From assembly GCA_030609325.1 (NCBI GenBank), contig JAUWCL010000014.1, forward strand, positions 1-64,000: a DNA stretch of 64,000 nt, in the 5' to 3' direction. This document shows, in pieces, positions 43,241 to 60,946 of the stretch (position 1 is the first letter of the stretch; each line of letters begins with the position of its first letter). The notes beneath the pieces are model-generated. The model saw only the letters and a list, made by a program, of their open reading frames with translations. It had not been told where the DNA came from and ran no database searches. The position numbers were made by a program, and so were the translations under genes. This stretch comes from Candidatus Krumholzibacteriota bacterium (GTDB lineage Bacteria > Krumholzibacteriota > Krumholzibacteriia > Krumholzibacteriales > Krumholzibacteriaceae).

Positions 43241-44122
43241 ATGAACATATCGATCGAAGGATTGAGCAAGACATACAAGGGCGGCACGACTGCCCTCACC
43301 GGGGTGGACCTCGAGATAGGCAGCGGGATGTTCGGCCTGCTCGGGCCGAACGGCGCGGGAAAGACGACACTGATGAGGATCCTCGTCACGCTGATGAAGC
43401 CGACCGGCGGCAGCGTCAGGGTAAACGATCTCGACCTGCAGAAGAACCGGCGCGAGATCAGGTCGATGCTCGGATACCTCCCGCAGGAGTTCAGATTCTT
43501 CTCCAAACTCACTACATGGGAATTCCTCGATTACATGACGTGCCTCGCCGGCCTGAAGGAAGCGAAGAAGCGGACAAAGGCCGTCGGCGAGATGCTCGAG
43601 CAGGTCGGACTCTACGACGTGCGCGACCGGCTCGCCAACAAGCTCTCCGGGGGAATGAAGCGCAGGCTGGGGATCGCCCAGGCGCTGATCGGAGAGCCGA
43701 AGATCATAGTCGTCGACGAACCGACGACCGGTCTCGATCCCGAGGAGCGGATCAGGTTCAGGAACCTGCTCGCCGATATGGGCCAGAAGGACATCGCCAT
43801 CATCCTCTCGACCCATATCGTCGGCGACATATCGAGCACCTGCCACAACATGGCACTGCTCGACCGCGGCCGCGTCGTTTTCCGCGGCTCCCCCGACGGG
43901 CTTATCGAGAAGACCCGCGGGCGGGCGTGGAAGATACGCGCGCTCGACAGCGAGCTCGAGGAGATAAAGACGACCTTCCCCGTGATATCGGCCATTCCCG
44001 CCGACGACGGTTGGGAGGTCCACGTCGTCGCCGACGATACGGGCAGATGGCCCGGCGAGGAGGTAGAGCCGGATCTCGAGCACGCGTACGTCTATTTCAT
44101 GGAGAACCTCTCGGAAAACTGA
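43241..44122 (+). CDS. ABC transporter ATPase
   Basis: 293 residues. All nucleotide-binding motifs are present: Walker A GPNGAGKTT (G35-T43), Q-loop LGYLPQEFRFF, signature LSGGMKRR (about 135), Walker B IIVVDEPTTGLD with D159-E160, and H-loop STHIV. The C-terminal 70 residues form a regulatory extension. It pairs with the next gene, a large ABC-2-like permease. The opening segment IGSGMFGLLGPNGAGKTTLM is nearly identical to the ATPase fused to the RND protein at 53239-57981, so the two ATPases are close paralogues inside one operon. Confidence 0.95.
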   Translation: MNISIEGLSKTYKGGTTALTGVDLEIGSGMFGLLGPNGAGKTTLMRILVTLMKPTGGSVRVNDLDLQKNRREIRSMLGYLPQEFRFFSKLTTWEFLDYMTCLAGLKEAKKRTKAVGEMLEQVGLYDVRDRLANKLSGGMKRRLGIAQALIGEPKIIVVDEPTTGLDPEERIRFRNLLADMGQKDIAIILSTHIVGDISSTCHNMALLDRGRVVFRGSPDGLIEKTRGRAWKIRALDSELEEIKTTFPVISAIPADDGWEVHVVADDTGRWPGEEVEPDLEHAYVYFMENLSEN

Positions 44123-44173: not shown

Positions 44174-47100
44174 ATGATATCTATCTACAACATCCTCACA
44201 GTGGCGAGATTCGAGGCAAAGACGCTGTGGAGGAGCTGGTTTTTCCGGATCTTCTCGATCCTCTCCATAGCGGTCATCGGCTTCTTCGACTTCGGGGCCC
44301 TCTCCCCCGTCACCTGGTCGCCGTGGGCTTTCCAGGGAGTGCCGACGACGATACCGTACATGAACATCCTTCTTCTCAACGCAGCGCAGGCGATCATAGC
44401 TGTATTCCTCGCCTCCGACTTTCTCAAGCGGGACAAGAAGCTCGACACGACCGAGGTCGTCTACATGCGCTCGTTGACAAACGCCGATTACATCGTCGGA
44501 AAAACGCTCGGGATCATGCTGATGTTCCTTCTGCTCAACGTCGTGATCCTGCTGATCGGCCTCGTATTCAACGTATTCTTCACGGAGACGACCTTCGCCG
44601 GGACAGCCTATCTCATATATCCCCTCGTGATCAGCGTGCCGACGCTTATCTTCATACTGGGATTCGCATTTCTCATGATGGTGACGATCCGCAACCAGGC
44701 GGTGACATTCATCGTCCTTCTCGGATATATCGGAATTACCATCTTCTATCTCGGGCCGAAGGTACACAATGTCTTCGACTACATCGCCTTCAACGTCCCG
44801 ATGGTCTACTCGCAGTTCACCGGCTTCGCAGACATGTTCCACATGCTCGCGCAGCGCTCGATCTATCTCCTGCTCGGTCTTTCGTTCATATCCATGACGA
44901 TAGTTATGATCCGGAGGCTCCCCCAGTCGAGGATGATGACGGGGCTGGCGAGGTTCGCCGCGATCGCCTGCGCGGCGCTCGCCATAGTGCTGATCGCCGT
45001 CTACACCGGCAGGGGCGGCAACGCGGGACGCCAGCGCGAGAGGATCCTGGAGGCATCCGAGGCAGCCGCTTCAAAACCGGTAGCGACGCCCCTCTCCTGC
45101 GCTATAGATCTCGGACACGAGGGCGGACTCATCGACGCGACGGCGGCGATGTCGGTGCGCAACGACACCGGCGCTCTGCTCGTCTCCTACATATTCAGCC
45201 TCAACCCGGGGCTGGCCGTCCGCGAAGTGACCGGCGATTCCGGGCCTCTGAAGTACGAGCGCGACGAACACATACTGACGATCGTGCCCTCGAGCCCTCT
45301 CGCCGCCGACGCCGAGGATTCATTCAATATAAGGTGGAGGGGGATAATAAACGAAGACGCCCTATACACCGATATCGGCAAAGAGACGCTCGCTGACGCG
45401 TACAGGATCATTTTCTTCAACATCGGCAGGAGATACTCGTACATACATCCCTCGTACGTGCTGCTGACGCCCGAGACGATGTGGTACCCGGTCGCCGGGC
45501 CGGGATTCGTCCCGTCGGAGCCGCTCGAGCGGCGGCACGATTTCATCGACTTCTCCCTCGACGTCACCACTTCTCCCGGGTTGACCGCCGTCTCGCAGGG
45601 CGCGTCCGCGTCGACCTCGCCGGGCAGCTTCAGCTTCCGTCCGGAGAACCCCCTGCCTGCGATATCCCTGGCGATCGCGGAGTTCGAGAGAAAGACCACC
45701 GTCGTAGACTCGGTCGAGTACAACATCTACTACGGCGAGGGACATGACTACTGGACGCAGCACCTCTCCGAGGTCGGCGACACGCTCGAAGCGATGATCA
45801 GGGATCTGCGTCAGACATACGAAAACAACCTCAACCTCGAGTATCCCTTCCCCAGGTTCTCGATAGTGGAGGTCCCGGTCCACTACTCGGCCTTCCATCA
45901 CGCCTGGTCGGTGAGCCAGGAGACGGTCCAGCCGGAGATCGTGTTCATACCCGAAAAGGGAGTGACCCTCAGGAGCGCCGATTTCAGGAGGATGAAGCGC
46001 AGGAACGAACGGCGGCTCAAGAGGAGCAACGAGGAAGTCTCGGAGATGGAGAGCCAGGCCGGCATGCTCGCAGTCTTCGTCAACGGGACGCTTACCGGCC
46101 GTTTCGGCAGAAGGGAGTTCGGCGTCGACGATCCCTTCAGGAGGTCGCCCTCATACAACGTCTTCCCCAACATGCTCTCGTTCAGGAACGGCATCGATTT
46201 CCAGGAAATGCCATGGCTCGTCATGGCTCTCGAGTCGTGGTACGCGTCGAGACTGGACGACAACGTCTCGACCTTCACGCGGATGTATTTCGGCATGACG
46301 CCCGAGGAGAGGGTCAACCTCAAGCTCGCAGAGATGAGCCTCCGCGACCTCGTTCTCGATCCCGATTACCGCAAGATGTCCCATTTCGCCCTGCGATCCA
46401 AGGGGAACTTCCTCTTCACCATGATGGAGAGTACGACGGACCGCGACAACCTCGACGCAAGTTTCAAGGAGCTTTTCGAAAGGTACGAGCACGGCAACGT
46501 GCCGGGTGAAGTGTTCGCCTCCTCGCTTCAGGAGAAGTTCGGGATCGACCTCACCACGATGGCGGCCGGCTGGTACGACAGCGTTGCCCTGCCCGGATTC
46601 ATCATGTCCCCCGTCGACATCTACAAGTTCATCGACGGCGAGCGCGAGAGATACCAGGTCCGCTTCAGCGTCACCAACAACGGGGACACCGACGGGCTGA
46701 TCGACTTCACATTCAGACAGATGGACCTCAATATGCGCGGCGGCAGGAGATTCGGGATGATGCGGATGATGACGGCGACGATGACCCTCGGGGAGGACTA
46801 CAACAGGTACGTTCCCATCGAGTCCGGCGTGACGAAGGAACTCGGATTCGTCCTCGACTTCCAGCCCTCCTCGATCCTCGTCAACACTCTCGTGTCGCGC
46901 AACCTCCCCGCCGTCCTCGAGATCGACCTGCCGGAACAGCTCGAGGAGAAGAAGAAGGCCGCTCCCTTCGACGGCGAAAGGCTTCGCGAGAAGCCGGTGA
47001 GCCTCACCGTGGAAGGCGAGACGGTCGTCGATAACGAGGATCGGGGATTCGAGTTCGCCTCGGGCAGATCGAAGAGCCTGCTCAAAAGGCTCCTCCCCCG

Positions 47101-47545
47101 CCGGGCGCCCGAAGAGGACACGAAATATGTCGGAATGAGGCTCTGGAACAAGACGAACAAGTGGCAGCCATCGGTCGACTCGAAGTTCTACGGCGGCCAG
47201 ATCCGCTCGGCCCACTTCATATCGGGCGGCAAGGGCGACCTGAAGGCCTCATTCACCGCCACGCTCGAGAAGAGCGGGCACTACGACATCTATTACCACG
47301 TCAGCAGGATCACCTCCCCCTGGAGAAGACACAGGCGCGAGGAGACCGACTACGGGAAACACCACTTCCTCATATATCACGACGACGGCGTCGAGGAGAC
47401 GGAGCTTGACATCAACGGCGCCGACGACGGATGGAACTATCTCGGCTCGTACTACATCTCGGAGGGCAAGGCGGTCGTCGAACTGACCAACCAGTCCGAG
47501 GGACGTGTCGTGATCGCCGACGCGGTCAAGTGGGTCGGGCGCTAG
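44174..47545 (+). CDS. ABC-2-like permease with degenerate M1-peptidase region and golvesin-like C-terminus
   Basis: 1123 residues. Residues 10-290 hold six or seven membrane helices (RSWFFRIFSILSIAVIGFFD onward). Residues 310-840 resemble the M1 aminopeptidase part of known permease/M1 fusions (RYSYIHPSYVLLTPETMWYP, VEVPVHYSAFHHAWSV), but no HExxH zinc motif exists; the matching area reads MPWLVMALESWYAS. Residues 985-1123 match the golvesin-like C-terminal module (SGHYDIYYHV, DGWNYLGSYYISEGKAVVEL, VVIADAVKWV). It should form the membrane part for the preceding ATPase. The exported middle and end probably bind cargo or partner proteins instead of cutting peptides. Confidence 0.85.
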   Translation: MISIYNILTVARFEAKTLWRSWFFRIFSILSIAVIGFFDFGALSPVTWSPWAFQGVPTTIPYMNILLLNAAQAIIAVFLASDFLKRDKKLDTTEVVYMRSLTNADYIVGKTLGIMLMFLLLNVVILLIGLVFNVFFTETTFAGTAYLIYPLVISVPTLIFILGFAFLMMVTIRNQAVTFIVLLGYIGITIFYLGPKVHNVFDYIAFNVPMVYSQFTGFADMFHMLAQRSIYLLLGLSFISMTIVMIRRLPQSRMMTGLARFAAIACAALAIVLIAVYTGRGGNAGRQRERILEASEAAASKPVATPLSCAIDLGHEGGLIDATAAMSVRNDTGALLVSYIFSLNPGLAVREVTGDSGPLKYERDEHILTIVPSSPLAADAEDSFNIRWRGIINEDALYTDIGKETLADAYRIIFFNIGRRYSYIHPSYVLLTPETMWYPVAGPGFVPSEPLERRHDFIDFSLDVTTSPGLTAVSQGASASTSPGSFSFRPENPLPAISLAIAEFERKTTVVDSVEYNIYYGEGHDYWTQHLSEVGDTLEAMIRDLRQTYENNLNLEYPFPRFSIVEVPVHYSAFHHAWSVSQETVQPEIVFIPEKGVTLRSADFRRMKRRNERRLKRSNEEVSEMESQAGMLAVFVNGTLTGRFGRREFGVDDPFRRSPSYNVFPNMLSFRNGIDFQEMPWLVMALESWYASRLDDNVSTFTRMYFGMTPEERVNLKLAEMSLRDLVLDPDYRKMSHFALRSKGNFLFTMMESTTDRDNLDASFKELFERYEHGNVPGEVFASSLQEKFGIDLTTMAAGWYDSVALPGFIMSPVDIYKFIDGERERYQVRFSVTNNGDTDGLIDFTFRQMDLNMRGGRRFGMMRMMTATMTLGEDYNRYVPIESGVTKELGFVLDFQPSSILVNTLVSRNLPAVLEIDLPEQLEEKKKAAPFDGERLREKPVSLTVEGETVVDNEDRGFEFASGRSKSLLKRLLPRRAPEEDTKYVGMRLWNKTNKWQPSVDSKFYGGQIRSAHFISGGKGDLKASFTATLEKSGHYDIYYHVSRITSPWRRHRREETDYGKHHFLIYHDDGVEETELDINGADDGWNYLGSYYISEGKAVVELTNQSEGRVVIADAVKWVGR

Positions 47546-47567: not shown

Positions 47568-49070
47568 ATGTTATCCGAATCGAGGATCTCCGGAGCGGCG
47601 CGGAGGTTCGCCGCCGCCGTACTGCTCGCTGCGCTGCTGCCGGCCGTATTGCCGCCGGGGACGTCGGCGCAACATGTACTGACGCTCGTCGACGCCCTCT
47701 CCATCGCGATGGAGAACAGCCCCAATATCAGGCATACGAAATTCCGGCTCGAGGCAAGCGAGGCAAGACTCAGGGCGCAGGAGGCGGGGCTCAAAACACA
47801 GTTCGGGCTGACCCTCGGACCGATCTCGTATCAGAACACCAACAGGTTCGACGAGTTCTTCTCCACCTGGTACAGGTACGAATCGAAAAACATCGCCGGT
47901 CAGTTCACGATCAGGCAGCCGATCAAGTGGACCGACGGAGTGCTCTCCCTCAACGACCGCCTCTCCTGGCACGACACGTACACCGAGGTGAACGACGAGT
48001 CGACGAAAAATTTCCGCAACGAGCTTTACCTCGAGTTCGACCAGCCGTTGTTCACCTACAACAGGATGAAGATGGACCTCAATGTGCTCGAGCTCGACTT
48101 CGAGAGCAGCCAGCTGACCTATGCCATCGCACAGCTGAATCTCGAGAGAACGGTGATGAACGAGTTCTACAACCTCTATGAAATAAAGATGAGGCTCGAG
48201 ATCAACCGCGACGCGATGGATACCGACCGTGAGCATCACCGCATCATGAAGAACAAGTACGACGCGGGGATCGGGAAGCTCGACGACCTCACGCAGGCCG
48301 AGACAGACATGCTCTCGAGCGAGTCGAACCACAATAACACGGTCGTCTCCCTGGCAAACGCCCTTGACCGCTTCAAGTACCGCATCGGCCTCCCGATAGA
48401 CGACGATATCGACATCGATGCAGACATCGCTTTCAGCCCCGTCGGGGTCGACATGGATTTCGCCGTCAGGCACGGGCTCGAAACGCGGATGGAGCTTCGC
48501 CAGCAGGAGATCACGATCGCCAACGCGTACAACAGTGTGGTCAGAGCGGGAACGGTGAACGAATTCAGTGGCGATCTTCATCTCTCGTGGGGATCGTCCG
48601 GGACAAACCCGGACTTCACCAATATCTACAACAAGCGGACCGATGAGCAGGCCGTACGCATCTCCTTCGACATACCGATCTGGGACTGGGGACAGAAGGA
48701 GAACACGATCCTCGCCAGTGAAATCAATCTCGAGAGCCATAAACTTGCTCTCGAGGAGGACAGATACGAGATCACGATGGATATAAGGGAATCGTGCCGC
48801 GAGCTCGACAACCTCGTCCGCCAGATCGAGCTGGCCCGCAGGCGGATCGAGAGCGCCGAGAAGACGTACGAGATCAACCTCGAGAAATACCAGAACGGGG
48901 ATATCACGACACAGGTGCTCGGAGACTACCGCCAGACACTTTCGAACGCAAGACTCAGCGAGATCAGGGAGTTGATCAACTACAGGCTCCAGCTGCTCGA
49001 CCTGAAGATAAAATCATTGTGGGACTTCGAGAATGACCGACCGGTGGTCGAACTTACAACGGAGATGTAA
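47568..49070 (+). CDS. TolC-family outer-membrane efflux protein
   Basis: 500 residues. A signal peptide (about 10-38) ends near GTSAQHVLTLVDALSIAMEN, where mature TolC-type proteins begin. Two OEP repeats follow, each a long helical hairpin; the second contains EQAVRISFDIPIWDWGQKEN and ELDNLVRQIELARRRIESAE. TolC trimers give a channel across outer membrane and periplasm for RND or ABC exporters. Together with the next two or three genes this completes a tripartite pump. AAAGGA precedes the ATG. Confidence 0.93.
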   Translation: MLSESRISGAARRFAAAVLLAALLPAVLPPGTSAQHVLTLVDALSIAMENSPNIRHTKFRLEASEARLRAQEAGLKTQFGLTLGPISYQNTNRFDEFFSTWYRYESKNIAGQFTIRQPIKWTDGVLSLNDRLSWHDTYTEVNDESTKNFRNELYLEFDQPLFTYNRMKMDLNVLELDFESSQLTYAIAQLNLERTVMNEFYNLYEIKMRLEINRDAMDTDREHHRIMKNKYDAGIGKLDDLTQAETDMLSSESNHNNTVVSLANALDRFKYRIGLPIDDDIDIDADIAFSPVGVDMDFAVRHGLETRMELRQQEITIANAYNSVVRAGTVNEFSGDLHLSWGSSGTNPDFTNIYNKRTDEQAVRISFDIPIWDWGQKENTILASEINLESHKLALEEDRYEITMDIRESCRELDNLVRQIELARRRIESAEKTYEINLEKYQNGDITTQVLGDYRQTLSNARLSEIRELINYRLQLLDLKIKSLWDFENDRPVVELTTEM

Positions 49071-49085: not shown

Positions 49086-50135
49086 GTGAAGAGAATCCTG
49101 TTTGTTTCGGCAGCGCTGCTGGTCTCTTCTTCCTGCGGAGGCGGGGACGATAGGATAGACGTCGAGGTCGCCATTCCCGTATCGGTCGAGGAGATCACCC
49201 CCGGCTCGATCGAGGAATTCGTGACGGCGACCGGCACGGTGAAGGCTTCCAAGGAGGTGACGATCAACGCCGAGACGGGCGGCGAATACATCCTGCTCGA
49301 CAATCCAGAGACGGGCAGGCCCTTCGCTCTGGGCGACATCGTCGCGAAAGGGACGAAGATAATCCGCCTCAGGAACCAGGAGGAGGAGAACAACATAAGG
49401 ATAGACGCACGCAAACTCTCCCTGGAGACTATGCGCCTCGAATACGAGCAGCAGAGATCGCTCTATGAAAAGGGGGGCGTCACGCGCCTCGACCTGGCAT
49501 CGGCCGAGCGTTCCTACATAGACGCGAAATACGACTACGATAACGCGCATATCCGCCTCTCGAAGCTCAACATCACCGCGGCGTTCGACGGCGTCATCAC
49601 GAGCCTCCCCTACTACACGCGGGGAGTCGATGTCGCCCTGGGCGCGGAGCTTCTCGGCCTGAAGGAGTACAGCCGCCTCCAGCTCGAGGTGAGCCTTCCC
49701 GGAAAGGAGCTCGGCCGCGCCGGCGCCGGCCAGGACGTGCGCCTGATGAACTACACACTCCCCGACGACACCCTCTCCGGCACGGTCACGCAGGTCTCCC
49801 CCACCCTCGACCCGGCGTCGAGGTCGTTCAAGGCAATGATCGAGATCGGCAACCCCGATCTGATGCTCAGGCCGGGCATGTTCGTCAAGGCGGAGATCGT
49901 AGTCGCCCGGAGCGACTCGACGATCGTGATCCCCAAGGACGTGATACAGGTCAGGCAGCGGGGCAAGACTGTTTTCATCGTCCGGAAAGGCGCCGCGCAG
50001 GAGCGGATCATCACCACGGGGCTCGAGAATCCGAACTGGATAGAGGTGCTCGACGGGCTCGAGATCAACGACCGTCTCGTCGTGAGGGGGTTCGAGACGC
50101 TGAGGAACAGGTCGAAGGTAAAGGTCGTGAGGTGA
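49086..50135 (+). CDS. Lipoprotein periplasmic adaptor (HlyD/MFP family)
   Basis: 349 residues from GTG 49086 (AAGGAG seven bases upstream). The N-terminus is a lipoprotein signal with the cysteine in LLVSSSCGGG. The adaptor fold follows: beta-barrel and lipoyl halves (VTATGTVKASKEVTINAETG, LNITAAFDGVITSLPYYTRG), a short coiled coil between them, and the membrane-proximal domain (LVVRGFETLRNRSKVKVV). These proteins join the inner-membrane pump to TolC. The stop overlaps the next start (TGATG), so adaptor and pump are co-translated. Confidence 0.93.
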   Translation: MKRILFVSAALLVSSSCGGGDDRIDVEVAIPVSVEEITPGSIEEFVTATGTVKASKEVTINAETGGEYILLDNPETGRPFALGDIVAKGTKIIRLRNQEEENNIRIDARKLSLETMRLEYEQQRSLYEKGGVTRLDLASAERSYIDAKYDYDNAHIRLSKLNITAAFDGVITSLPYYTRGVDVALGAELLGLKEYSRLQLEVSLPGKELGRAGAGQDVRLMNYTLPDDTLSGTVTQVSPTLDPASRSFKAMIEIGNPDLMLRPGMFVKAEIVVARSDSTIVIPKDVIQVRQRGKTVFIVRKGAAQERIITTGLENPNWIEVLDGLEINDRLVVRGFETLRNRSKVKVVR

Positions 50136-53100
50136 TGAGGAAGATATCGGAATTCTCCGTCGAACATCCCGTTACAGTGACGATGATCGTCCTCGGCGTG
50201 ATCCTGCTCGGCTGGATCTCGTTCCAGCGGCTCGGGATAGACCTCTTCCCCGACCTGAACAATCCCCGCCTCTTCGTCGAGATAGAGGCGGGCGAGCGCC
50301 CCCCCGAGGAGATGGAAAAGCAGTACGTCGCCGATATGGAGAACCTGATCTTCACACAGAAGGGGATCACGGGGGTCTCCTCGGTCATCAGGGTCGGTGC
50401 TGCGAGGATCACCGTCAAGTACGGCTGGGACATGGACATGGACGAAGCCTTCCTCAATCTCCAGAAGGCAGCGGCAGACTTCGGGCAGGGCGTCGACGAC
50501 CTCGAGATCACGATAACCCAGCACGATCCGAACTCCGATCCCGTCATGACGTTCGCCCTGGTCAATCCCGACGTGACCGACATGGACGGCCCCCGCAGGA
50601 TCGCGGAGAACTACATCCGCAACGAGCTGGTCAGGATCGAGGGGATCGCCGGCGTCGAGATCTCCGGGGGCGAGACGAAGGAAGTGATCGTCCTGACCGA
50701 TTCGTACATGCTCGAGGCGTACGGACTCTCGGTCGACGAGATCGCTTCGAAGATAAGCAGCTACAACGTCGAGGCCTCTGGCGGTACCGTCACCGAGATG
50801 GGTATCTCGTACCTGATCAAGGGCGTCTCCGTCATGGAGTCTGTCGAGGATATCAGACAGATCATCCTCGCCTGGAAGGAGCCCGGCGAGGGGCAGCAGC
50901 TTTCCGCCGGGGGTCAGCAGCCTGCGGCAATGCAGACCGCCGGCGGATCGACGGAGAAGGCTCCCGTATACCTGCGCGACGTTGCGGACGTATCGCTGCG
51001 CAACAGGGAGCCGGAGAATATCGTCAGACTCAACGGCACGAGGTGCCTCGGGCTCTCGGTCTACAAGGAGATGCGGTTCAACACCGTCGATGCGAGCGAC
51101 AATCTCATGGCGGCCCTCGACCGGATCGAAAAGGCCCTTCCCGGCTACGAGCTCGTCGTCATCCAGGACCAGGGGCGGTTCATCAACTCGTCGATCGGCG
51201 AGGTGAGGCAGACGGCGCTCCTCGGAATATTCCTCGCGATACTTATACTCTACGTCTTCCTCAGGCGCCTGGGGACCACTGCGATCATCAGCATATCGAT
51301 ACCGGTCTCGATCGTGGCTACCTTCAACCTGATGTACTTCAAGGGGCTGTCGCTCAACATCATGACGCTCGGCGGCCTCGCCCTCGGCGCGGGGATGCTC
51401 GTCGACAACGCCATCGTCGTTGTCGAGAACATAGTCCGCAACATCGAATCGGGTATGAGCGTCAAGGAAGCCGCCGCGACCGGCACCGCGCAGGTCGGCG
51501 GAGCGATAACGGCCTCAACGATCACTACGATCGTCGTCTTTCTCCCGATAGTCTACCTGCACGGCGCGGCCGGAGAGCTCTTCAAGGACCAGGCGTGGAC
51601 GGTAGCCTTCGCCCTCCTCTCCTCTCTCGCCGTCGCGATACTGATAATCCCGATGCTCGCAGCAAGGTTCCTCGGGAGCGGCAAGGCATCGGCCGTCGCA
51701 AGACCGGTGCGATTCGAGCGTTACGGCGCCATACTGTCGAAGGCGCTCGAGAGGCGCTGGGCCGTGATCGCCGGGGCGGCGGCCCTCGTCGCGCTGGCAA
51801 TCCTTCTCCTTCCGATAGTGGGCAGCGAGTTCATACCCGAGGCGGACGCCGACGAATACTCGATATACCTCACCCTGCCCGAGGGGTCCGACCTGACGAG
51901 GACCGACGGAACGGTCAGGGGGCTCGAGGAGCTGATAAAGGGCATCTTCGGCGACGCGGTCGAGGCGCTCTACAGCACGACAGGGCCGGTGACGGGGATC
52001 GGCAGCGACGAGTCGTCCGTCTTCCAGGACGAGAACACCGCCGTCGTGAGAATTCGGTTTGCCGAAGGGCACGGGCTCGGCTCGGACGGGATCATGTCGG
52101 GACTGGGCGCGGCGCTCGCGACGATACCGGCCATCGAGTCGAGGCTCGTCCGGGACCAGACGGCCCTGCGCTCCGTACTGGGGGCGGAGTCGGCTCCCGT
52201 GGTGATCGAGATCAAGGGAGACGACCTCGAGACGCTCACTCTTCTCGCCGACCAGGTCAGGGAGAAGCTCTCCGGGGTCGATGACCTCTATAACGTGGAG
52301 ACCTCTCTCGAGCACGGACGTCCCGAGGTCAGCGTCGTGGTCGACCGCCTCAGGGCCGGGATGCTCGAGGTGAGGCTCGGCGAGGTGACGGAGGCCCTCG
52401 AATCGAGACTCACGGGCCGCAGCGCCGGAGAATGGAACCGCGGCGGTGAGAAGACCGATATTACCGTGATGCTTCCCGAAGTGGGGCTGGGTGATCTCGA
52501 CAGGATATACATAGACTCCGGCGGCAGGAAATTCCGTCTCGACGAGCTGGCAAGCCTCGAGATCGGCACCGCGCCGCGCGAGATCAACAGGCGCGGCCAG
52601 ATGAGGGCCGCCGTCGTCACCGCGCACAAGCGCGAGGGCAGGCCGTTCGACCACGCGATACGCGAGATAAACGGCGAGCTCGCCGCTATGGATATACCGC
52701 CCGACTACAGGCTGGTGATCGCAGGAGAGGAGGCCAAGAGGCGCGAGGAGTTCCGCGACCTGAGGTTTGCGCTCATACTCTCGGTGATACTCGTCTACAT
52801 GGTCCTTGCCTCACAGTTCGAGTCGCTCGTCCATCCGTTCGCGATCCTTCTCACGATCCCGCTCGCCGGAGTCGGCGCCGTTCTGATCTTCTTCGTGCTC
52901 GGCCGCCCGCTGAGCATCATGGCCTACATCGGGATGATCATGCTCGTCGGTATAGCGGTGAACGATTCGATCATCCTGATCGACGCGATCAACCGGCTCA
53001 GGCGCGATGGCATGGCAAAGAGGGATGCGATCGTCGCCGCCGGAAGGATGAGGATCAGGCCTATCGTCATGACGAGCACGACGACGATCCTCGCGCTTCT

Positions 53101-53242
53101 CCCCCTCACCCTGGGATTCGGCGAGGGCGCCTCGCTCCGCTCCCCGATGGCACTGGCGGTGATCGGCGGGCTGGTGACGTCGACGATACTCACTCTCCTC
53201 GTAATACCCTGTGTCTATTCCGTCCTGGATCGGAGCCGATGA
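50135..53242 (+). CDS. RND efflux permease
   Basis: 1035 residues from ATG 50135 (GTG at 50132 is also possible). The HAE-type layout is complete: helix 1 (VTVTMIVLGVILLGWISFQR), a porter domain, helices 2-6 with GAGMLVDNAIVVVENIVR, a second porter domain and helices 8-12 with AVNDSIILIDAINRLRRDG and MTSTTTILALLPLTLGFGEG. The proton-relay position shows Asp-Asn rather than the Asp-Asp of AcrB, as in many divergent RND pumps. It is followed by the fused RND-ABC protein with an ATGA overlap, so the active trimer may be mixed. Confidence 0.95.
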   Translation: MRKISEFSVEHPVTVTMIVLGVILLGWISFQRLGIDLFPDLNNPRLFVEIEAGERPPEEMEKQYVADMENLIFTQKGITGVSSVIRVGAARITVKYGWDMDMDEAFLNLQKAAADFGQGVDDLEITITQHDPNSDPVMTFALVNPDVTDMDGPRRIAENYIRNELVRIEGIAGVEISGGETKEVIVLTDSYMLEAYGLSVDEIASKISSYNVEASGGTVTEMGISYLIKGVSVMESVEDIRQIILAWKEPGEGQQLSAGGQQPAAMQTAGGSTEKAPVYLRDVADVSLRNREPENIVRLNGTRCLGLSVYKEMRFNTVDASDNLMAALDRIEKALPGYELVVIQDQGRFINSSIGEVRQTALLGIFLAILILYVFLRRLGTTAIISISIPVSIVATFNLMYFKGLSLNIMTLGGLALGAGMLVDNAIVVVENIVRNIESGMSVKEAAATGTAQVGGAITASTITTIVVFLPIVYLHGAAGELFKDQAWTVAFALLSSLAVAILIIPMLAARFLGSGKASAVARPVRFERYGAILSKALERRWAVIAGAAALVALAILLLPIVGSEFIPEADADEYSIYLTLPEGSDLTRTDGTVRGLEELIKGIFGDAVEALYSTTGPVTGIGSDESSVFQDENTAVVRIRFAEGHGLGSDGIMSGLGAALATIPAIESRLVRDQTALRSVLGAESAPVVIEIKGDDLETLTLLADQVREKLSGVDDLYNVETSLEHGRPEVSVVVDRLRAGMLEVRLGEVTEALESRLTGRSAGEWNRGGEKTDITVMLPEVGLGDLDRIYIDSGGRKFRLDELASLEIGTAPREINRRGQMRAAVVTAHKREGRPFDHAIREINGELAAMDIPPDYRLVIAGEEAKRREEFRDLRFALILSVILVYMVLASQFESLVHPFAILLTIPLAGVGAVLIFFVLGRPLSIMAYIGMIMLVGIAVNDSIILIDAINRLRRDGMAKRDAIVAAGRMRIRPIVMTSTTTILALLPLTLGFGEGASLRSPMALAVIGGLVTSTILTLLVIPCVYSVLDRSR

Positions 53243-56200
53243 GCGCTGGCAACTTTATAATCCGCCGCAAGACCCTCATCAGCATGCTCTTCACTGGGCT
53301 GGTGATGCTCGGCGTCATATCGCAGAGGCGACTGCCGGTGGAGCTGTTTCCCGACATCGAGCTCCCGTACCTCTTCGTCTGGGTCCGATCGACACGACCC
53401 GTCGATCCCGTCCGGGTCGAGAAGGAGGCGGTGATCCCGATCGAGGAGGCGGCCGGCACACTCGAGGGAATAGAACTGATCGAGTCCGACGTCGGCCGCG
53501 GCATGGGCAGGATAACGATCGAGTACGAGAAGGGCATTGACGTCAAGTATGCCTACCTCAAGCTCGAGGAGAAGATCGCGGAGATCAGGTCCTCGATCCC
53601 CGAAGACTATATCGTCAGGGTCTTCAAGCTCGATATACAGCGGATATCGAACGACCTGATCTTCCTTGAGATCCGCGGAACGGGGGGCATCGACCGCGTC
53701 CGGCAGGTAGTCGACAGGGACATCGTCAGGGAGTTCGAGAGCATCGAGGGAATCGCCGAGGTGACCGTCACCGGCGGACGGGAGAAATCGGTCGACATAA
53801 TCCTCGACGACGAGGCGATCGAAGCGTACGGGCTCACCGCGTCGAGGATCTCCGCCCTTATCTCTCAGAACGGCGCGTCCAATACCTTCGTCGGCCAGGC
53901 GGTGGAGAAGGACAGGAAATACTTCGTCAAAGTCGTGACCGAATATCTCGACATCGCCGATCTCGAGAAGATCGTCGTGCATCCCGGCGGACCGGTCCTG
54001 CTCGGCGACATCGCCGATATCTACTTCGGCGTTAAGAAGCAGGAGGACATCACGAGGGTAAACGGGATGGAATCGGTCTCGATGAACCTGACGAAGGACC
54101 AGATGGTCAACATGATCGAAGTCTCCGACAGGGCTCTCGAGACGGTCGAACGGCTCAACCGCGAGATGCGCGACATGGAGATGGAGATCGTCGTCCAGTA
54201 CGACGGCGCCGAGTCGATACGCGGCAACATCAGCCTCATCGTCAGGCTCGCCGTCATCGGCGGCCTGCTCGCCATCATCATACTGTGGTTCTTCCTCAGG
54301 AACCTTCGACTCGTCTTCGTCATCGCCCTGTCGATCCCCATCTCGGTATACATCGCGATGAACTTCTTCTACGCCGCCGGAATATCGATAAACAGCCTCA
54401 CCCTCATAGGAATCGCTCTCGCGATCGGGATGCTCCTCGACAACGGCGTAGTCGTACTCGAGAACATATACAGGCTCGTCTCGAAGGGAATGGATGCCGA
54501 CAGGGCCGTAATCCAGGGAGTGAGCGAGGTATGGCGCTCGATCGTAGCCGCCACGGCGACTACGATAACGGTCTTCCTCCCCTTCGTCTTCTCCTCGAAT
54601 TTCATAGTTCAGAGTCTCGGAAAGCATATCGGGGTGTCGATCGTCTCGACACTGATCGTCTCCCTCGCAGCCGCCCTCCTGCTCGTCCCGATGGTCAGCC
54701 ATTACTTCCTCTCGAAGGGGAAGAGGCCCGACTACAGCCACGTACGATCCTCGGGCGGCAGGATGATGGAGATATACCGCGCCCTGCTCAAGACAGGGAT
54801 GAGATACCCCGCCAGAACGACGGTCGGGGCGCTCATCATCTTCTTCGTCAGCATCATCCTCTGCCTCGGCCTGAGCGCCGGCTCGTCACGCATCGAGGAA
54901 ACGGGATCGTTCGACATCTTCCTCGTCATGCCGCGCGGCTCAACACTCGAATCGACCGACGCCGCCGTCCGCAACCTCGAGGAGAGGCTCGACAGGATCC
55001 CCGAGAAGCAGGACATCATCAGCCGCATCTACGAAGAGGACGCCCGGATCACGGTGACGCTGAAGGAAGGGTACAGCGACATCGACAGGCGCAATCTCAG
55101 CCAGGTAAAGTCCGCCGCAAGGCAGCGGATTAAAGATTTCAGGACGGGCGAGATATCGTTCGATGAGCCCACTTCGAGCACGAGGTACCGCGGAAATCGC
55201 GGCGGAGGTATGGGCGGCGCGATGGGGCGCTTCTTCGGATTCGGCGCCCAGCAGAAGAGCATCGTCGTCAAGGGGAGCGATTTTCAGGCGATGTCGAGAT
55301 TCGCGGGCAACCTCGTCGAGTATATCGACGATCTCACGTCGACCGCGTCGGCGCAGGTCGACGTCATCCCGGGCAGCCCCGAGATACAGCTGATGTTCGA
55401 CATGCCCCTTCTCACCTGGCACGACCTCACCCTGCAGTCGGTCAACAGGGAGCTGAACTCTTTCCAGCCCGAGCGGTCCACCGGACGGGTGTTCAAGGAC
55501 GGAACCGACGAGTACGAGATCGTCATCAGGAGCTCTGGCGTCGAGGAGCGGCGGACCGACGACCTGCGCGAGATGTCCCTCCAGTCGCCCTCCGGCGCGG
55601 TCATCGATCTCGAGGAAGTCAGCCGCATGGTCTACTCGCGGGGCATGACCAGGATCAAGCGCGTCAACCAGGAGAAGCAGATATCTATAACCTACTCATT
55701 CATTGACGAGATCAACGATTCCAGAAAGCTGCTCGACGCGGCCGAGGCGGAGATAGAGGAACTGATCGCCGGGCTCGTCGTTCCACAGGGCATGGCGGTC
55801 GAGATAGTCGAGGACGACAGCGGCGTTGGCGATTTCAAGTTCCTGATACTCGCCGCTTTCATTCTTATCTACATGATCCTCGCGTCGGTCTTCGAGTCGC
55901 TGACCACCCCGGTCGTTATGATGTTCACGATCCCGCTCGCCGCCATAGGTTCGCTCTGGCTCCTGATCTTCACAGGCACATCGATTGTGGATATATACAC
56001 GCTGACCGGATTCCTCATCCTTCTCGGCGTCGTCGTCAACAACGGGATCATCCTCATAGATTACTCGCTCATCCTGAGGCGCAGGGGCTACCGAACGGCG
56101 AGGTCGCTCATGATGGCCGGCCAGGCGAGGATGCGCCCGATCCTCATCACCGCCATCACGACGATCGCGGCGATGGTCCCGCTCGCGATGGGAAAGGAAG

Positions 56201-57981
56201 AAGAGGTCTCCGTCATCGGGTCGCCTTTCGCCATTACCGTCATAGGCGGCCTGACGGCAGGCACCCTCTTCACGCTTATATTCATACCTGTCGTATATTC
56301 CGGGCTCGATTCGGCGCTCAGCTGGATGAGAGGGCTCGACTGGAGGATCAAGCTGGCGCAGGCTGTCGCGGCTTTTCTCGGTATCTGGCTCGTCTGGGAA
56401 AAGATCGATTCGCTGATCTGGAGATCGGCCATGACAGCAACTGTCATACTGGCCGTCCCGGCGATCACCTGGTTCGTCCTTGCCAGCCTGAGGAAGGCGT
56501 CGGAAAAGGTGATCGACAGTGAGAGCGCGATCACGATCACGGTGCGCAACCTCGTCAAGATCTACGATCAGCCTTCGAAATTCGTCCGCGAATGGAAAAA
56601 GGGCGGGCGGATCAGGGAGAGACGCGGAGATACCCGCACGAGCGACGCGGGAGACCTGCTCTGGCAGCTCCCCGTACTCGGCTTCATGATCTACTTCGTC
56701 TATTTATACCTCTCTTCTTTCTTCTGGGCATTCGTGCTCTCGCACACACTTTTCTTCTTCCTGATGCACCTGTGGAGCTGCTGGAGCGGACGGCTGCCGG
56801 GTCTGACGGGCTTCGTGAGACGCTTACTGCGCGGGCTGTCGAAGAACTTCATATGGCTCTTCCCTCTCGTCAACCTCACCGTCTTCTACAGGAAGTGGGA
56901 CAACCTCGCCGCAGTGATATTCATCGCGATCCTCTGGTTCGCCGCCCTCGCGATCTTCTCCACATCTCGCAGGATCCACCGGGAACGTATCAACATCGCG
57001 AGGATCGAGGGGCGCTTCGCCGGCATCCGCCGTTCCCTCTACCGCCTCGTGCTCATGATACCCGTCATCGGAAAGCGCAAGCAGCCGTTCAAGGCGCTTG
57101 ATCGCGTGTCGCTCGAGATCGGCAGCGGGATGTTCGGCCTGCTCGGCCCGAACGGAGCGGGCAAGACGACGCTTATGAGGGTGATCTGCGGGATCCTCGA
57201 CCAGAGCTACGGCAAGGTATACATCAACGGGATAGACACGACCAGGAAGCGCGAGGAGCTGCAGGGGCTGATCGGCTACCTGCCGCAGGAGTTCGGTACA
57301 TACGAGAACATGACGGCGAGGGAATTCCTCGACTACCAGGCGATCCTCAAAGGCCTCACCGATAAGGAGAAACGCCGTGAGATGGTAGACTACGCCCTCG
57401 GGGCGGTACACATCGAAGAGCATGCCGACAGGAAGATCGGCGCCTTCTCCGGCGGGATGAAGCAGCGGGTCGGGATAGCGCAGATACTCCTGCACCTGCC
57501 GAGGATCCTCGTCGTCGACGAGCCGACCGCCGGGCTCGACCCGCGCGAGAGGATCAGGTTCCGCAACCTCCTCGTCGAACTGAGCAGGGAGAGGGTCGTC
57601 ATCTTCTCCACACACATCATCGAGGATATCTACAGCTCGTGCAACAGGGTCGCCGTCCTGAACAGAGGGCAGCTGCTCTATCTCGACGACCCGGTGAAGA
57701 TGACGGAGACGGCGCGTGGCCGTGTCTGGTCGTTCAGCGCCGAGCCGTCCGATTTCGAGAGGATCAGGAAGGAGCATCTCGTCGTCCATCACATGCGCGA
57801 CGGCGCGAGGATAAAGGTCAGGTGCCTCGCCGCCGAAAGGCCCGTGCCCGACGCACACGAGGCGCGGCCGACTCTTGAGGACGCCTACCTCTGGCTGCTG
57901 AGATCCTCGGGGAGCAACGTCCTGGGCGTGCGGAAAGCGGCGGCGGAAGCCGCGGGAGGTGACGCGGATGAGCAGGTCTGA
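53239..57981 (+). CDS. RND permease fused to an ABC ATPase (split nucleotide-binding domain)
   Basis: 1580 residues in one uninterrupted frame. Residues 1-1035 are a full RND pump: LISMLFTGLVMLGVISQRRL; ALAIGMLLDNGVVVLENIYR around helix 4; GVVVNNGIILIDYSLILRRR near helix 11. Two more hydrophobic segments follow (about 1040-1090). At 1098-1110 comes ITITVRNLVKIYD, the usual first strand of an ABC ATPase. About 170 residues with three or four membrane helices then intervene before PFKALDRVSLEIGSG (1283-1297). Then all ABC motifs appear: Walker A G1303-T1310, signature FSGGMKQR (1403-1410), Walker B with D1427-E1428, and H1459. All catalytic residues are intact. It overlaps the preceding RND gene (ATGA) and the following ABC permease gene by 14 bases. 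Confidence 0.9.
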   Translation: MSAGNFIIRRKTLISMLFTGLVMLGVISQRRLPVELFPDIELPYLFVWVRSTRPVDPVRVEKEAVIPIEEAAGTLEGIELIESDVGRGMGRITIEYEKGIDVKYAYLKLEEKIAEIRSSIPEDYIVRVFKLDIQRISNDLIFLEIRGTGGIDRVRQVVDRDIVREFESIEGIAEVTVTGGREKSVDIILDDEAIEAYGLTASRISALISQNGASNTFVGQAVEKDRKYFVKVVTEYLDIADLEKIVVHPGGPVLLGDIADIYFGVKKQEDITRVNGMESVSMNLTKDQMVNMIEVSDRALETVERLNREMRDMEMEIVVQYDGAESIRGNISLIVRLAVIGGLLAIIILWFFLRNLRLVFVIALSIPISVYIAMNFFYAAGISINSLTLIGIALAIGMLLDNGVVVLENIYRLVSKGMDADRAVIQGVSEVWRSIVAATATTITVFLPFVFSSNFIVQSLGKHIGVSIVSTLIVSLAAALLLVPMVSHYFLSKGKRPDYSHVRSSGGRMMEIYRALLKTGMRYPARTTVGALIIFFVSIILCLGLSAGSSRIEETGSFDIFLVMPRGSTLESTDAAVRNLEERLDRIPEKQDIISRIYEEDARITVTLKEGYSDIDRRNLSQVKSAARQRIKDFRTGEISFDEPTSSTRYRGNRGGGMGGAMGRFFGFGAQQKSIVVKGSDFQAMSRFAGNLVEYIDDLTSTASAQVDVIPGSPEIQLMFDMPLLTWHDLTLQSVNRELNSFQPERSTGRVFKDGTDEYEIVIRSSGVEERRTDDLREMSLQSPSGAVIDLEEVSRMVYSRGMTRIKRVNQEKQISITYSFIDEINDSRKLLDAAEAEIEELIAGLVVPQGMAVEIVEDDSGVGDFKFLILAAFILIYMILASVFESLTTPVVMMFTIPLAAIGSLWLLIFTGTSIVDIYTLTGFLILLGVVVNNGIILIDYSLILRRRGYRTARSLMMAGQARMRPILITAITTIAAMVPLAMGKEEEVSVIGSPFAITVIGGLTAGTLFTLIFIPVVYSGLDSALSWMRGLDWRIKLAQAVAAFLGIWLVWEKIDSLIWRSAMTATVILAVPAITWFVLASLRKASEKVIDSESAITITVRNLVKIYDQPSKFVREWKKGGRIRERRGDTRTSDAGDLLWQLPVLGFMIYFVYLYLSSFFWAFVLSHTLFFFLMHLWSCWSGRLPGLTGFVRRLLRGLSKNFIWLFPLVNLTVFYRKWDNLAAVIFIAILWFAALAIFSTSRRIHRERINIARIEGRFAGIRRSLYRLVLMIPVIGKRKQPFKALDRVSLEIGSGMFGLLGPNGAGKTTLMRVICGILDQSYGKVYINGIDTTRKREELQGLIGYLPQEFGTYENMTAREFLDYQAILKGLTDKEKRREMVDYALGAVHIEEHADRKIGAFSGGMKQRVGIAQILLHLPRILVVDEPTAGLDPRERIRFRNLLVELSRERVVIFSTHIIEDIYSSCNRVAVLNRGQLLYLDDPVKMTETARGRVWSFSAEPSDFERIRKEHLVVHHMRDGARIKVRCLAAERPVPDAHEARPTLEDAYLWLLRSSGSNVLGVRKAAAEAAGGDADEQV

Positions 57982-58690
57982 CAAGGTGCGCAACGCGATC
58001 TACTCGGCCAGGAAGATATCTTCGTACAACCTGAAGATCATCTTCGCCAACAAGTTCATCTACTTCCTGCTGGCCGCCTTCATATTCTTCCTCGCCGCCG
58101 GCGCCATCTCGTTTTTCTCGTCTGATTCGAACCCGGGCGTGCCCGATGTATACTACATACTGATGTTTCCCGGCATCCTCCTCGTCTTCTACCCTACCGT
58201 CTTCGGAATCCAGAACGACGTCGACTCCAGGATGATCGAGATCCTTTTCGGCATACCCGACTACAGGTACAAGGTATGGCTGTCGAGGATGGCGCTGATA
58301 TGGCTTATAACTTTCGCGCTGCTCGTAGTACTGACAGTGCTGAGCTCGGTCGTATTCGTTCAGGTGCCGATATTCAAGATGGTCTACCAGCTGATGTTCC
58401 CGATCTTTTTCATCGGAGCGCTTTCGTTCATGTTCTCGACCGTAATTCGAAGCGGAAACGGAACGGCGGTGATCATGGTAGTCATCGGTATGGCGTTCCG
58501 GGTAGCAGCCGAGGCCCTGTCGAAGAGCAAGTGGAACCTCTTCCTCAACCCTTTCCGGGTGCCCGACCAGATGACGGCTGCCGCATGGTCCGGGATCATC
58601 TACCAGAACCGCATAATGCTCGCCGTCGGCAGCGTGATCGCCATCCTGTACGGGCTCTACAACCTCCAGAACAGGGAAAAGTTCATCTGA
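57968..58690 (+). CDS. ABC-2-type permease
   Basis: 240 residues from ATG 57968 (GGAGGT seven bases upstream; the GTG at 57959 is less likely). Six membrane helices in ABC-2 style: FANKFIYFLLAAFIFFLAAG, YYILMFPGILLVFYPTVFGI with QNDVDSRMIEILFGIPDYRY between helices 2 and 3, ALIWLITFALLVVLTVLSSV, and a C-terminal LAVGSVIAILYGLYNLQNRE. It has no ATPase gene of its own; the natural partner is the ATPase at the end of the RND fusion just upstream, with which it overlaps. It closes the exporter operon. Confidence 0.9.
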   Translation: MSRSDKVRNAIYSARKISSYNLKIIFANKFIYFLLAAFIFFLAAGAISFFSSDSNPGVPDVYYILMFPGILLVFYPTVFGIQNDVDSRMIEILFGIPDYRYKVWLSRMALIWLITFALLVVLTVLSSVVFVQVPIFKMVYQLMFPIFFIGALSFMFSTVIRSGNGTAVIMVVIGMAFRVAAEALSKSKWNLFLNPFRVPDQMTAAAWSGIIYQNRIMLAVGSVIAILYGLYNLQNREKFI

Positions 58691-58750
58691 ATCTCCCTGA
58701 CCCCGCCAGCGCTATTGCACAGAGTCCCGATTGCTGTTAGCCTTGCGGCC

Positions 58751-60946
58751 ATGTATCCGCTCATGAAGAGGTTTTCTCTGACGGTCGCCGTGCTCCTCGC
58801 CGTCACCGCGGCAGGCACTGCGGCCGGGACCGGTTCGGGGCCGCCGAAAATAGGCATCGCCCTCAGCGGGGGCGGCGCCAGGGGCCTCGCCCACATAGGA
58901 GTACTCAAGGTCTTCGAGGAAGAGGGCCTGCAGGCCAAGATCATTACCGGGACGAGCATGGGCTCGATTATCGGCGGACTGTACGCGGCCGGGTACTCCC
59001 CCGCCTTTCTCGAGGAGATGGCAAACAGCGTCGACTGGTTCGGCTTGTTCCGCGAGACTGTCGACCGCAGGTATGTCTCGATGCGCCGGAAGCTGTTCAG
59101 GGACAGATACCTCCTCGCCTTCCCCGTTGAAGGCGACAGAGTCCGGCTCCCCTCGGGCATGATAAAAGGTCAGAAGATACACAGGCTCTTCTACGAGCTC
59201 TGCTGGCCGGTGGCGGAGATCAACGATTTCAGCGAATTCCACCGCCCGTTCTCATGCGTTGCGACCGACATAGTCACAGGAGAGCCGTACGTTATAGACA
59301 GCGGCAGCCTCGCCGACGCGATGAGGACAAGCATGGCAATACCGACCGCCTTCTCACCGGTCAACATGGACGGCCGCCTCCTCGTCGACGGGGGGCTCGT
59401 GAGAAATCTCCCGGCAGTCGACGCGATCGATCTGGGCGCCGCCATCGTCATATGTGTCGACGTGTCGAGCGACCTCGTCGGTGCGGACAGCCTCAGGACC
59501 ATGCTCGACATCACCGACCAGACCGTGGACATCCTGATGAAATCGACCATGGACGCGCAGAAGGAGTACTGCGACCTCTACATAAGGCCGGACCTCCAGA
59601 CCGTCAGCACCCTCGACTTCAGCAACGTACCCTACATCATCGAGCAGGGCGAGAAGGCGGCCCGCAGGCATATCGAACAGATACGCTCTCTGGTCGAAAA
59701 AACGGGTGGATTCCGCGATCCCTCCGAGCAGATGGAAGAGACGCCGGTAACATCTGTGGAAATATCGGGATTGAGACTCGATGGCCTCTCCGAGGTGCCG
59801 TCGAGTCTCGTGGCTTCTCTTATCGGGATCGATCCGCCCGCCTCGATCACCGCGGACGATATGGACCGGGCCCTGCAGAGGCTGTACAGCACCGGCTATT
59901 TCTCGAAGATATCGTACCGGTTCATAAAGAAAGACGGGGAAAGGACGCTCGTCCTCGACATCGAGGAGGAGAAGATGGACTACCTCGGCCTGGGCCTCAG
60001 GTACGATACGCGGTGGGCGTTCTCGGTCCTCCTCGGTGCCCAGATGAAGAACCTGGTCGGTCACGGCTCGGTGCTCAACCTCGATATGGTATTCAGCAAC
60101 CGCGTAAACCTCCTGGGCATCTATACACTCGACGCCGGCCTGGGGACCTGGCTCTCGCCCGGCCTGGCCGGCAATTATATCGACGATTACCTGGAGTCGT
60201 ACGAGGACGGGGAGCGGACGATGAGATGGGGAGTCAGGGCCGGCAGGGCCGGGCTTCTTGTGGAGAGCTCGCTGGGATACATATTCCGCTGCCAGATCGC
60301 CGGCGGCGGGGAATGGTACAGTATCAGGCCCGATATCGCGCCTCCCGGGACCCCGACGGAGTCGGGCGGCCTTTTTCTCGTTGGAGGGGACTTGTGGCTC
60401 GACACGCTTGACCGGTCGTGGATGCCGCGCAGGGGAATCCAGCTCAAGGTCTCGGGGCAGCACTTTCCCGAGATGTCGGTGAACGAGACCTCGTACAACA
60501 GGGCGTACGCCCATGTCGTCGCAGCCCTCCCGTTTCACAGCCGGGTGTCGCTCCGCGGCCGCTTTCTCTACGGGATCACCGGCGGGGGAAGACCCCTACC
60601 CCACCACAGGTACACTCTCGGCGGTATCATGTCGTGGTTCGATTATTACGGGCAGCGCGACGTCTCGTTCTACGGTTACGAACCCTTTGAGTTCTCCGGC
60701 TCGAACGCCTTCCTCGCCGGCGCCGATCTTCAGATAGAGATCACCTGCAGGTGGCTCGTCGCCGGGCATTTCAACGCCGGTTCGGCTGTCGACGACAGGA
60801 ACGAGATCTTCAAGGGTGAGAATACCTTTACGGGAGGGGCGGGTACCGTCGCGTACGAAACGCCCGTGGGACCGGCGGAGCTGACCCTCTCGAGCAGCGA
60901 ACGCAACGGCCTGAAGCTCTGGTTCGGCTTCGGATACCGCTTCTGA
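58751..60946 (+). CDS. Patatin-like phospholipase fused to an Omp85-type barrel (PlpD-like)
   Basis: About 731 residues from ATG 58751 (starts at 58715 or 58763 cannot be excluded; ribosome sites are weak). A signal peptide leads to the patatin domain: oxyanion loop SGGGARG, nucleophile elbow GTSMGS with S69, and VDGGLV with the catalytic D213. A POTRA-like unit (about 330-405) and a barrel (about 410-731, ending LWFGFGYRF) follow. This is the type Vd layout of PlpD/FplA, in which the lipase is carried to the surface by its own barrel. It acts on membrane phospholipids. Sixty bases separate it from the exporter operon. Confidence 0.92.
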   Translation: MYPLMKRFSLTVAVLLAVTAAGTAAGTGSGPPKIGIALSGGGARGLAHIGVLKVFEEEGLQAKIITGTSMGSIIGGLYAAGYSPAFLEEMANSVDWFGLFRETVDRRYVSMRRKLFRDRYLLAFPVEGDRVRLPSGMIKGQKIHRLFYELCWPVAEINDFSEFHRPFSCVATDIVTGEPYVIDSGSLADAMRTSMAIPTAFSPVNMDGRLLVDGGLVRNLPAVDAIDLGAAIVICVDVSSDLVGADSLRTMLDITDQTVDILMKSTMDAQKEYCDLYIRPDLQTVSTLDFSNVPYIIEQGEKAARRHIEQIRSLVEKTGGFRDPSEQMEETPVTSVEISGLRLDGLSEVPSSLVASLIGIDPPASITADDMDRALQRLYSTGYFSKISYRFIKKDGERTLVLDIEEEKMDYLGLGLRYDTRWAFSVLLGAQMKNLVGHGSVLNLDMVFSNRVNLLGIYTLDAGLGTWLSPGLAGNYIDDYLESYEDGERTMRWGVRAGRAGLLVESSLGYIFRCQIAGGGEWYSIRPDIAPPGTPTESGGLFLVGGDLWLDTLDRSWMPRRGIQLKVSGQHFPEMSVNETSYNRAYAHVVAALPFHSRVSLRGRFLYGITGGGRPLPHHRYTLGGIMSWFDYYGQRDVSFYGYEPFEFSGSNAFLAGADLQIEITCRWLVAGHFNAGSAVDDRNEIFKGENTFTGGAGTVAYETPVGPAELTLSSSERNGLKLWFGFGYRF

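Follow-up and report, generated by a model that had tools for sequence, protein, structure and literature searches.

A conserved RND-ABC fusion protein with membrane helices inside its ATPase, encoded in a multi-gene cassette

We identified a gene in a Krumholzibacteriota genome that joins a full-length RND permease to an ABC ATPase whose core is itself parted by predicted membrane helices. The two pump types are regarded as distinct families, each with its own energy source. The gene lies in a 64,000-nucleotide stretch (assembly GCA_030609325.1, contig JAUWCL010000014.1, positions 1 to 64,000; hereafter the window), and conservation, a profile test run blind, structure prediction and a homologue that is split in nature all support the fusion with its interrupted ATPase. 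The RND-ABC arrangement recurs within the same gene cassette in at least six bacterial groups, which makes it a genuine, apparently undescribed transporter. Based on sequence comparisons, we propose, with a probability of about one half, that the fusion supplies the second RND subunit to a composite envelope exporter, with an ABC-2 unit feeding a two-subunit RND-TolC pump.

The fusion protein and its interrupted ATPase

The initial annotation described a continuous 1580-codon frame that combines a complete RND permease, carrying a single relay Asp, with an ATPase retaining its catalytic motifs, and each of these elements was borne out. Translation of positions 53239-57981 on the forward strand yielded 1580 residues and no stop, and Pfam assigned ACR_tran over its full length to residues 5-1021 (E = 3e-155) and ABC_tran to residues 1288-1431 (E = 6e-28). 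The gene and its parts are as follows:

53239..57981, +: RND-ABC fusion gene, 1580 aa (open frame, Pfam, full-length homologues)
53251..56301, +: RND permease module, residues 5-1021 (ACR_tran; relay residues kept in 57/57)
54439-54441, +: Asp401 codon, within the RND module
56341..56502, +: two further helices following the RND module, residues ~1035-1088 (model helices 5-25 and 29-58 of a 530-aa segment; hydropathy)
56536..56565, +: strand 1 of the ATPase, with the A-loop, residues 1100-1109 (invariant K1107 and Y1109; profile; model)
56566..57087, +: insert with four predicted membrane helices, ~1143-1157, 1161-1188, 1192-1220 and 1223-1248 (model; hydropathy)
57088..57918, +: remaining ABC ATPase, residues 1284-1560 (Pfam, conserved motifs, model, Foldseek)

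Asp401 lies in TM4 with Asn402 adjacent, and Asp401, Asn934 and Thr971 are retained in 57/57 aligned fusion proteins. The TM10 Lys of the AcrB type is thus absent, the AcrB Lys940 position being occupied by Asn934 in every aligned protein. Across the same alignment, the Walker A motif (1303-1311), Q-loop, signature (1403-1410), Walker B Asp-Glu (1424-1428) and H-loop His (H1459) are each invariant (57/57), as are Lys1107 and Tyr1109 of the A-loop. The invariance of the TM4 Asp and of all ATPase motifs argues that neither engine has decayed, and both look intact by their key residues.

The fused ATPase has an ABC fold with strand 1 and A-loop, but the contiguous strand 1-strand 2 region is absent, as an insert of about 170 residues, predicted to contain four membrane helices, parts strand 1 (1100-1109) from strand 2 (1284). 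We searched the 260-residue linker of each fusion with a strand-1 profile built from 40 ordinary ABC ATPases, and in 57/57 cases the top match of this profile began at residue 1100 +/-1. Scores ranged from 0.9 to 15.9, with most fusions exceeding the best of 285 shuffled linkers (4.2) and a few falling below it. An AlphaFold2 model of the 530-aa segment (120 alignment rows, strand 1 trimmed off the ordinary ATPases beforehand; pLDDT 93.2, pTM 0.83), which superseded a poor first model from 13 rows (pLDDT 62.7), placed a strand at 1100-1109, four long helices after it, and strand 2 beginning at 1284, with strand pairing taken from DSSP only. Strand 1 of the model falls within residues 1098-1110, the segment originally proposed as the first strand of a split ATPase, and Foldseek matched the modelled segment to ABC ATPases (e.g., 4yer, 1vpl and LptB). 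Together, the 57/57 profile result and the confident model indicate that the ATPase is truly split by membrane helices.

The position of these helices, which the initial annotation placed between strand 1 and the Walker A half, held for the insert but needed correction upstream, where two further hydrophobic helices (~1035-1088) precede strand 1 and bring the predicted total to about 18 according to the model and hydropathy. The charge pattern and hydropathy are consistent with helices 13-14 lying ahead of strand 1, helices 15-18 lying in the insert and the ATPase being cytosolic; because the window's copy shows only weak hydrophobicity in the third insert helix, the number of helices is a predicted one. 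The insert is far more variable in sequence than the A-loop and ATPase motifs among the 57 aligned proteins, and showed no Pfam family, no solved relative and no likeness to the small permease gene that follows the fusion (PERM2, below). Every clear match to the insert belongs to a long fusion frame or to a frame ended by a contig end, and a search with an insert profile found no stand-alone ATPase carrying it; the exceptions are a weak hit (E = 6e-4) in G576 and the split homologue. The fused ATPase groups with ABC-2-type ATPases (DrrA/GldA/NosF/ABCA).

This split homologue, in the MAG Prado141 (L051), divides the gene naturally: a 1136-aa frame stops after helix 14, and a second gene of 483 aa starts just ahead of strand 1 and includes the insert and the ATPase. 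The extra helices at ~1035-1088 therefore go with the RND half, and the split point shows that the modules meet after helix 14 and ahead of strand 1, which makes both strand 1 and the insert part of the ATPase. It also means that the covalent link between the RND and ATPase parts is not always kept. Exactly between the two halves lies an imperfect palindrome of 97 bases (L051:5579-5675), which may be a small mobile repeat.

Distribution and origin of the fusion

Homologue searches recovered 57 full or near-full-length proteins with the same RND-ABC order (1443-1594 aa) from several phyla, namely Krumholzibacteriota, Bacteroidota (Bacteroides, Parabacteroides, Marinifilum and Marivirga), Chlorobiota, KSB1 and Latescibacterota, and further fusions were found in Zixibacteria and Acidobacteriota-like genomes. 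Among 58 relatives, the RND end, linker and ATPase are found as a single continuous segment in the window genome and 12 more, from two families, with 55-88% identity over residues 1031-1560; another copy (G022) is represented by its RND half, ended by a contig end. A scan of named genomes added 50 long fusions (1443-1592 aa), both in isolates, including Bacteroides faecis, Parabacteroides faecis, Marinifilum fragile, Draconibacterium mangrovi, Marivirga sericea and Butyricimonas synergistica, and in MAGs of Chlorobiota, KSB1 and Latescibacterota. Judged by sequence family alone, the proteins of gut Bacteroides and Parabacteroides are likely to be annotated as ordinary RND pumps.

The insert-profile search gave matches in 13/80 genomes of the window's phylum (Krumholzibacteriota), 8/119 of the phylum of a Zixibacteria MAG, 8/149 of the phylum of an Aminicenantes MAG and 5/248 of a Bacteroidota sample, one of the latter being weak. 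Of the loci read from the last three sets, all but the weak one carry the insert and ATPase in one frame, and in these the RND end is also in frame except in L155, which is cut short. Plasmid records yielded no fusion, and no place in them covers 80% of the query. One genome (G006) carries the gene as two overlapping frames near residue 790 (L042, C82, 8901-13594), reflecting a frameshift or an assembly error.

In a tree of ATPase domains, in which rows L143-L161, L086 and L093 count as fusions with their flanks cut, all fused ATPases form one clade (support 99/98), pointing to a single fusion event.

The gene cassette and a proposed composite exporter

The fusion is embedded in a cassette, whose other members in the window are listed below:

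43241..44122, +: stand-alone ABC ATPase (ABC1), 293 aa, sharing 43% identity with the fused ATPase
44174..47545, +: large ABC-2 permease (PERM1), 1123 aa (ABC-2 domain; conserved in the cassette)
47568..49070, +: TolC-type outer membrane channel, 500 aa (OEP, E = 7e-43)
49086..50135, +: periplasmic adaptor (MFP), 349 aa (RND_mfp TIGR01730 above cut-off)
50132..53242, +: second RND permease (RND1), 1036 aa (ACR_tran, E = 3e-206; conserved order)
57959..58690, +: small ABC-2-like permease (PERM2), 243 aa (near-constant fusion neighbour; weak ABC2_membrane matches in some members)

The order ABC1-PERM1-TolC-MFP-RND1-fusion-PERM2 is conserved in Krumholzibacteriota, Bacteroidota and Zixibacteria, and the RND1/fusion and fusion/PERM2 reading frames overlap by 4 and 23 bases, respectively, as in a tight operon. 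The adaptor, TolC and two RND genes occur together as in an MdtABC-type tripartite pump, while Acidobacteriota-like cassettes contain no detectable TolC; in two of these (L163 and L166), ABC1 and PERM1 are still adjacent but lie on the opposite strand, divergent from the rest. RND1 conserves its own Asp425 (50/50) and has Asn at the AcrB Lys940 position in 49/50, so this Asn appears to be a trait of both RND subunits rather than decay of the fused one.

PERM2 adjoins the fusion in nearly all homologous loci. It is present in 12/13 fusion-positive relatives, with the contig of the 13th ending inside the gene, and was found in none of the other 45 of the 58 relatives and never without the fusion. 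Members match ABC2_membrane_4/2/3 weakly (best member, E = 6e-4), the window's own copy gave no ABC-2 match, and the likeness between PERM1 and PERM2 is weak by profile comparison (E = 0.013). PERM1 combines its ABC-2 domain with a degenerate, weakly matching peptidase M1-like part, which lacks HExxH in the window and in all 13 relatives read, and with Golvesin_C; a PERM1 paralogue occurs at G000:C39:13314. In G020, RND1 is present as two frames (L038:11733-14797) in an otherwise complete cassette. A patatin-like phospholipase with POTRA and an Omp85-like barrel follows the cassette in the window (58715-60946, +) and its close relatives, but does not belong to the cassette in genomes further removed.

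In the proposed composite exporter, RND1 and the fusion would most likely assemble into a mixed RND trimer docked to the adaptor and TolC, with the six extra helices anchoring the fused ATPase at the membrane. This ATPase would power the ABC-2 permease made by PERM2, and the resulting unit could heterodimerize with ABC1-PERM1. Using ATP, the ABC-2 unit would collect a substrate in the cytosol or inner leaflet and deliver it to the outer face of the inner membrane; there, the RND part, driven by protons, would take it over and export it through TolC. MdtB2C provides a precedent for a mixed 2:1 RND trimer (PMC4462101); two fusion copies and one RND1 would supply exactly two ATPase domains, as an ABC dimer needs. 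We infer the trimeric assembly, the pairing of the ATPase with PERM2, the hand-over of substrate and the direction of transport, as well as any energy coupling between the RND and ABC parts. Evidence in favour includes the recurrence of the cassette order across phyla, the adjacency of ABC1 and PERM1 even on the opposite strand, the restriction of PERM2 to fusion-bearing members of the 58 relatives, the ABC-2 Pfam families drawn by both PERM1 and PERM2, the ABC-2 type of the fused ATPase, and the invariant TM4 Asp and ATPase motifs. Counting against it are the weak ABC-2 assignment of PERM2, its lack of detection in L164 and L099, the split gene of L051, and a genome (G024) with ABC1-PERM1 on a contig without the rest of the cassette.

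The same proteins could instead form an independent ABC-2 exporter, in which PERM2 and the fused ATPase are tethered to the RND pump for co-localisation or equal expression while the two cycles stay uncoupled. Neighbouring genes with overlapping ends fuse easily, and the L051 homologue works, if at all, without a covalent link. We nevertheless regard a passive fusion as fairly unlikely, given that a fusion of single origin (one clade, 99/98) has been kept across several phyla and that the six extra helices and the interrupted ATPase are conserved alongside it.

The initial annotation had raised two functional readings, with the RND part acting as the relay of an ABC exporter or with ATP hydrolysis driving the RND cycle. 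The key residues kept in both engines and the ABC-2-like permease gene tied to the fusion favour the former. Direct drive, in which ATP hydrolysis would turn the conformational cycle of the RND trimer through inserted helices packed as levers on the RND bundle, would suit the membrane helices between strands 1 and 2, the linker to the RND bundle, and the single TM4 Asp with no Lys at the AcrB K940 position. It is improbable, however, because Asp401 is invariant as in proton-driven RNDs, RND1 shows the same Asp/Asn pattern without any ATPase, and a dedicated ABC-2-like permease gene nearly always adjoins the fusion. The invariance of the catalytic Glu, the His and all hydrolysis motifs (57/57) makes it very doubtful that the ATPase is a sensor or assembly factor whose nucleotide binding gates the pump or recruits RND1 or the adaptor without powering transport. 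Finally, a missed stop, frameshift or chimeric assembly can be set aside, for although the frameshifted copy in G006 shows that errors exist in this group of MAGs, none was found in the window and the same frame occurs in many independent genomes, named isolates included.

Returning to the composite exporter, it is conceivable, at somewhat short of even odds, that two energy sources, ATP hydrolysed by the interrupted ABC domain and protons flowing through the RND part, act in sequence or on the same step to move substrate from the cytosol through both membranes. Two coupled energy sources, if true, would define a new transporter class, and the conserved RND-ABC protein would offer a natural system for asking how ATP and the proton gradient combine in one export path.

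Comparison with known systems

The component families are known; their union and the interrupted ATPase are, as far as we found, undescribed. Full-text literature searches, which covered a minority of subscription papers and preprints, returned no RND-ABC fusion and no membrane helices inside an ABC ATPase core, in agreement with the earlier statement that no described protein is known to combine both pumps.

Like HAE-1 RND permeases (AcrB and CmeB), the fusion has a complete ACR_tran domain with the TM4 Asp, to which it adds a C-terminal extension of ~550 residues comprising six helices and the ATPase. The best solved match to its RND part is MdtB of Escherichia coli MdtABC-TolC, a system that likewise has two different tandem RND subunits, an adaptor and TolC, but has no ATPase, 12 rather than ~18 membrane helices and no ABC-2 genes. 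In MacAB-TolC, too, an inner membrane component powered by ATP works with an adaptor and TolC, and the ATPase and membrane helices share one chain; MacB, however, contains its own 4-helix permease, no RND part and an uninterrupted ATPase. ABC-2 exporters (DrrAB, NosFY, GldA-type and ABCA) have an ATPase of the type seen in the fusion, and an ABC-2-like permease gene comes directly after the fusion; in ordinary members, however, the ATPase is either free or fused to a permease, nothing interrupts its strand 1-strand 2 region, and there is no RND part.
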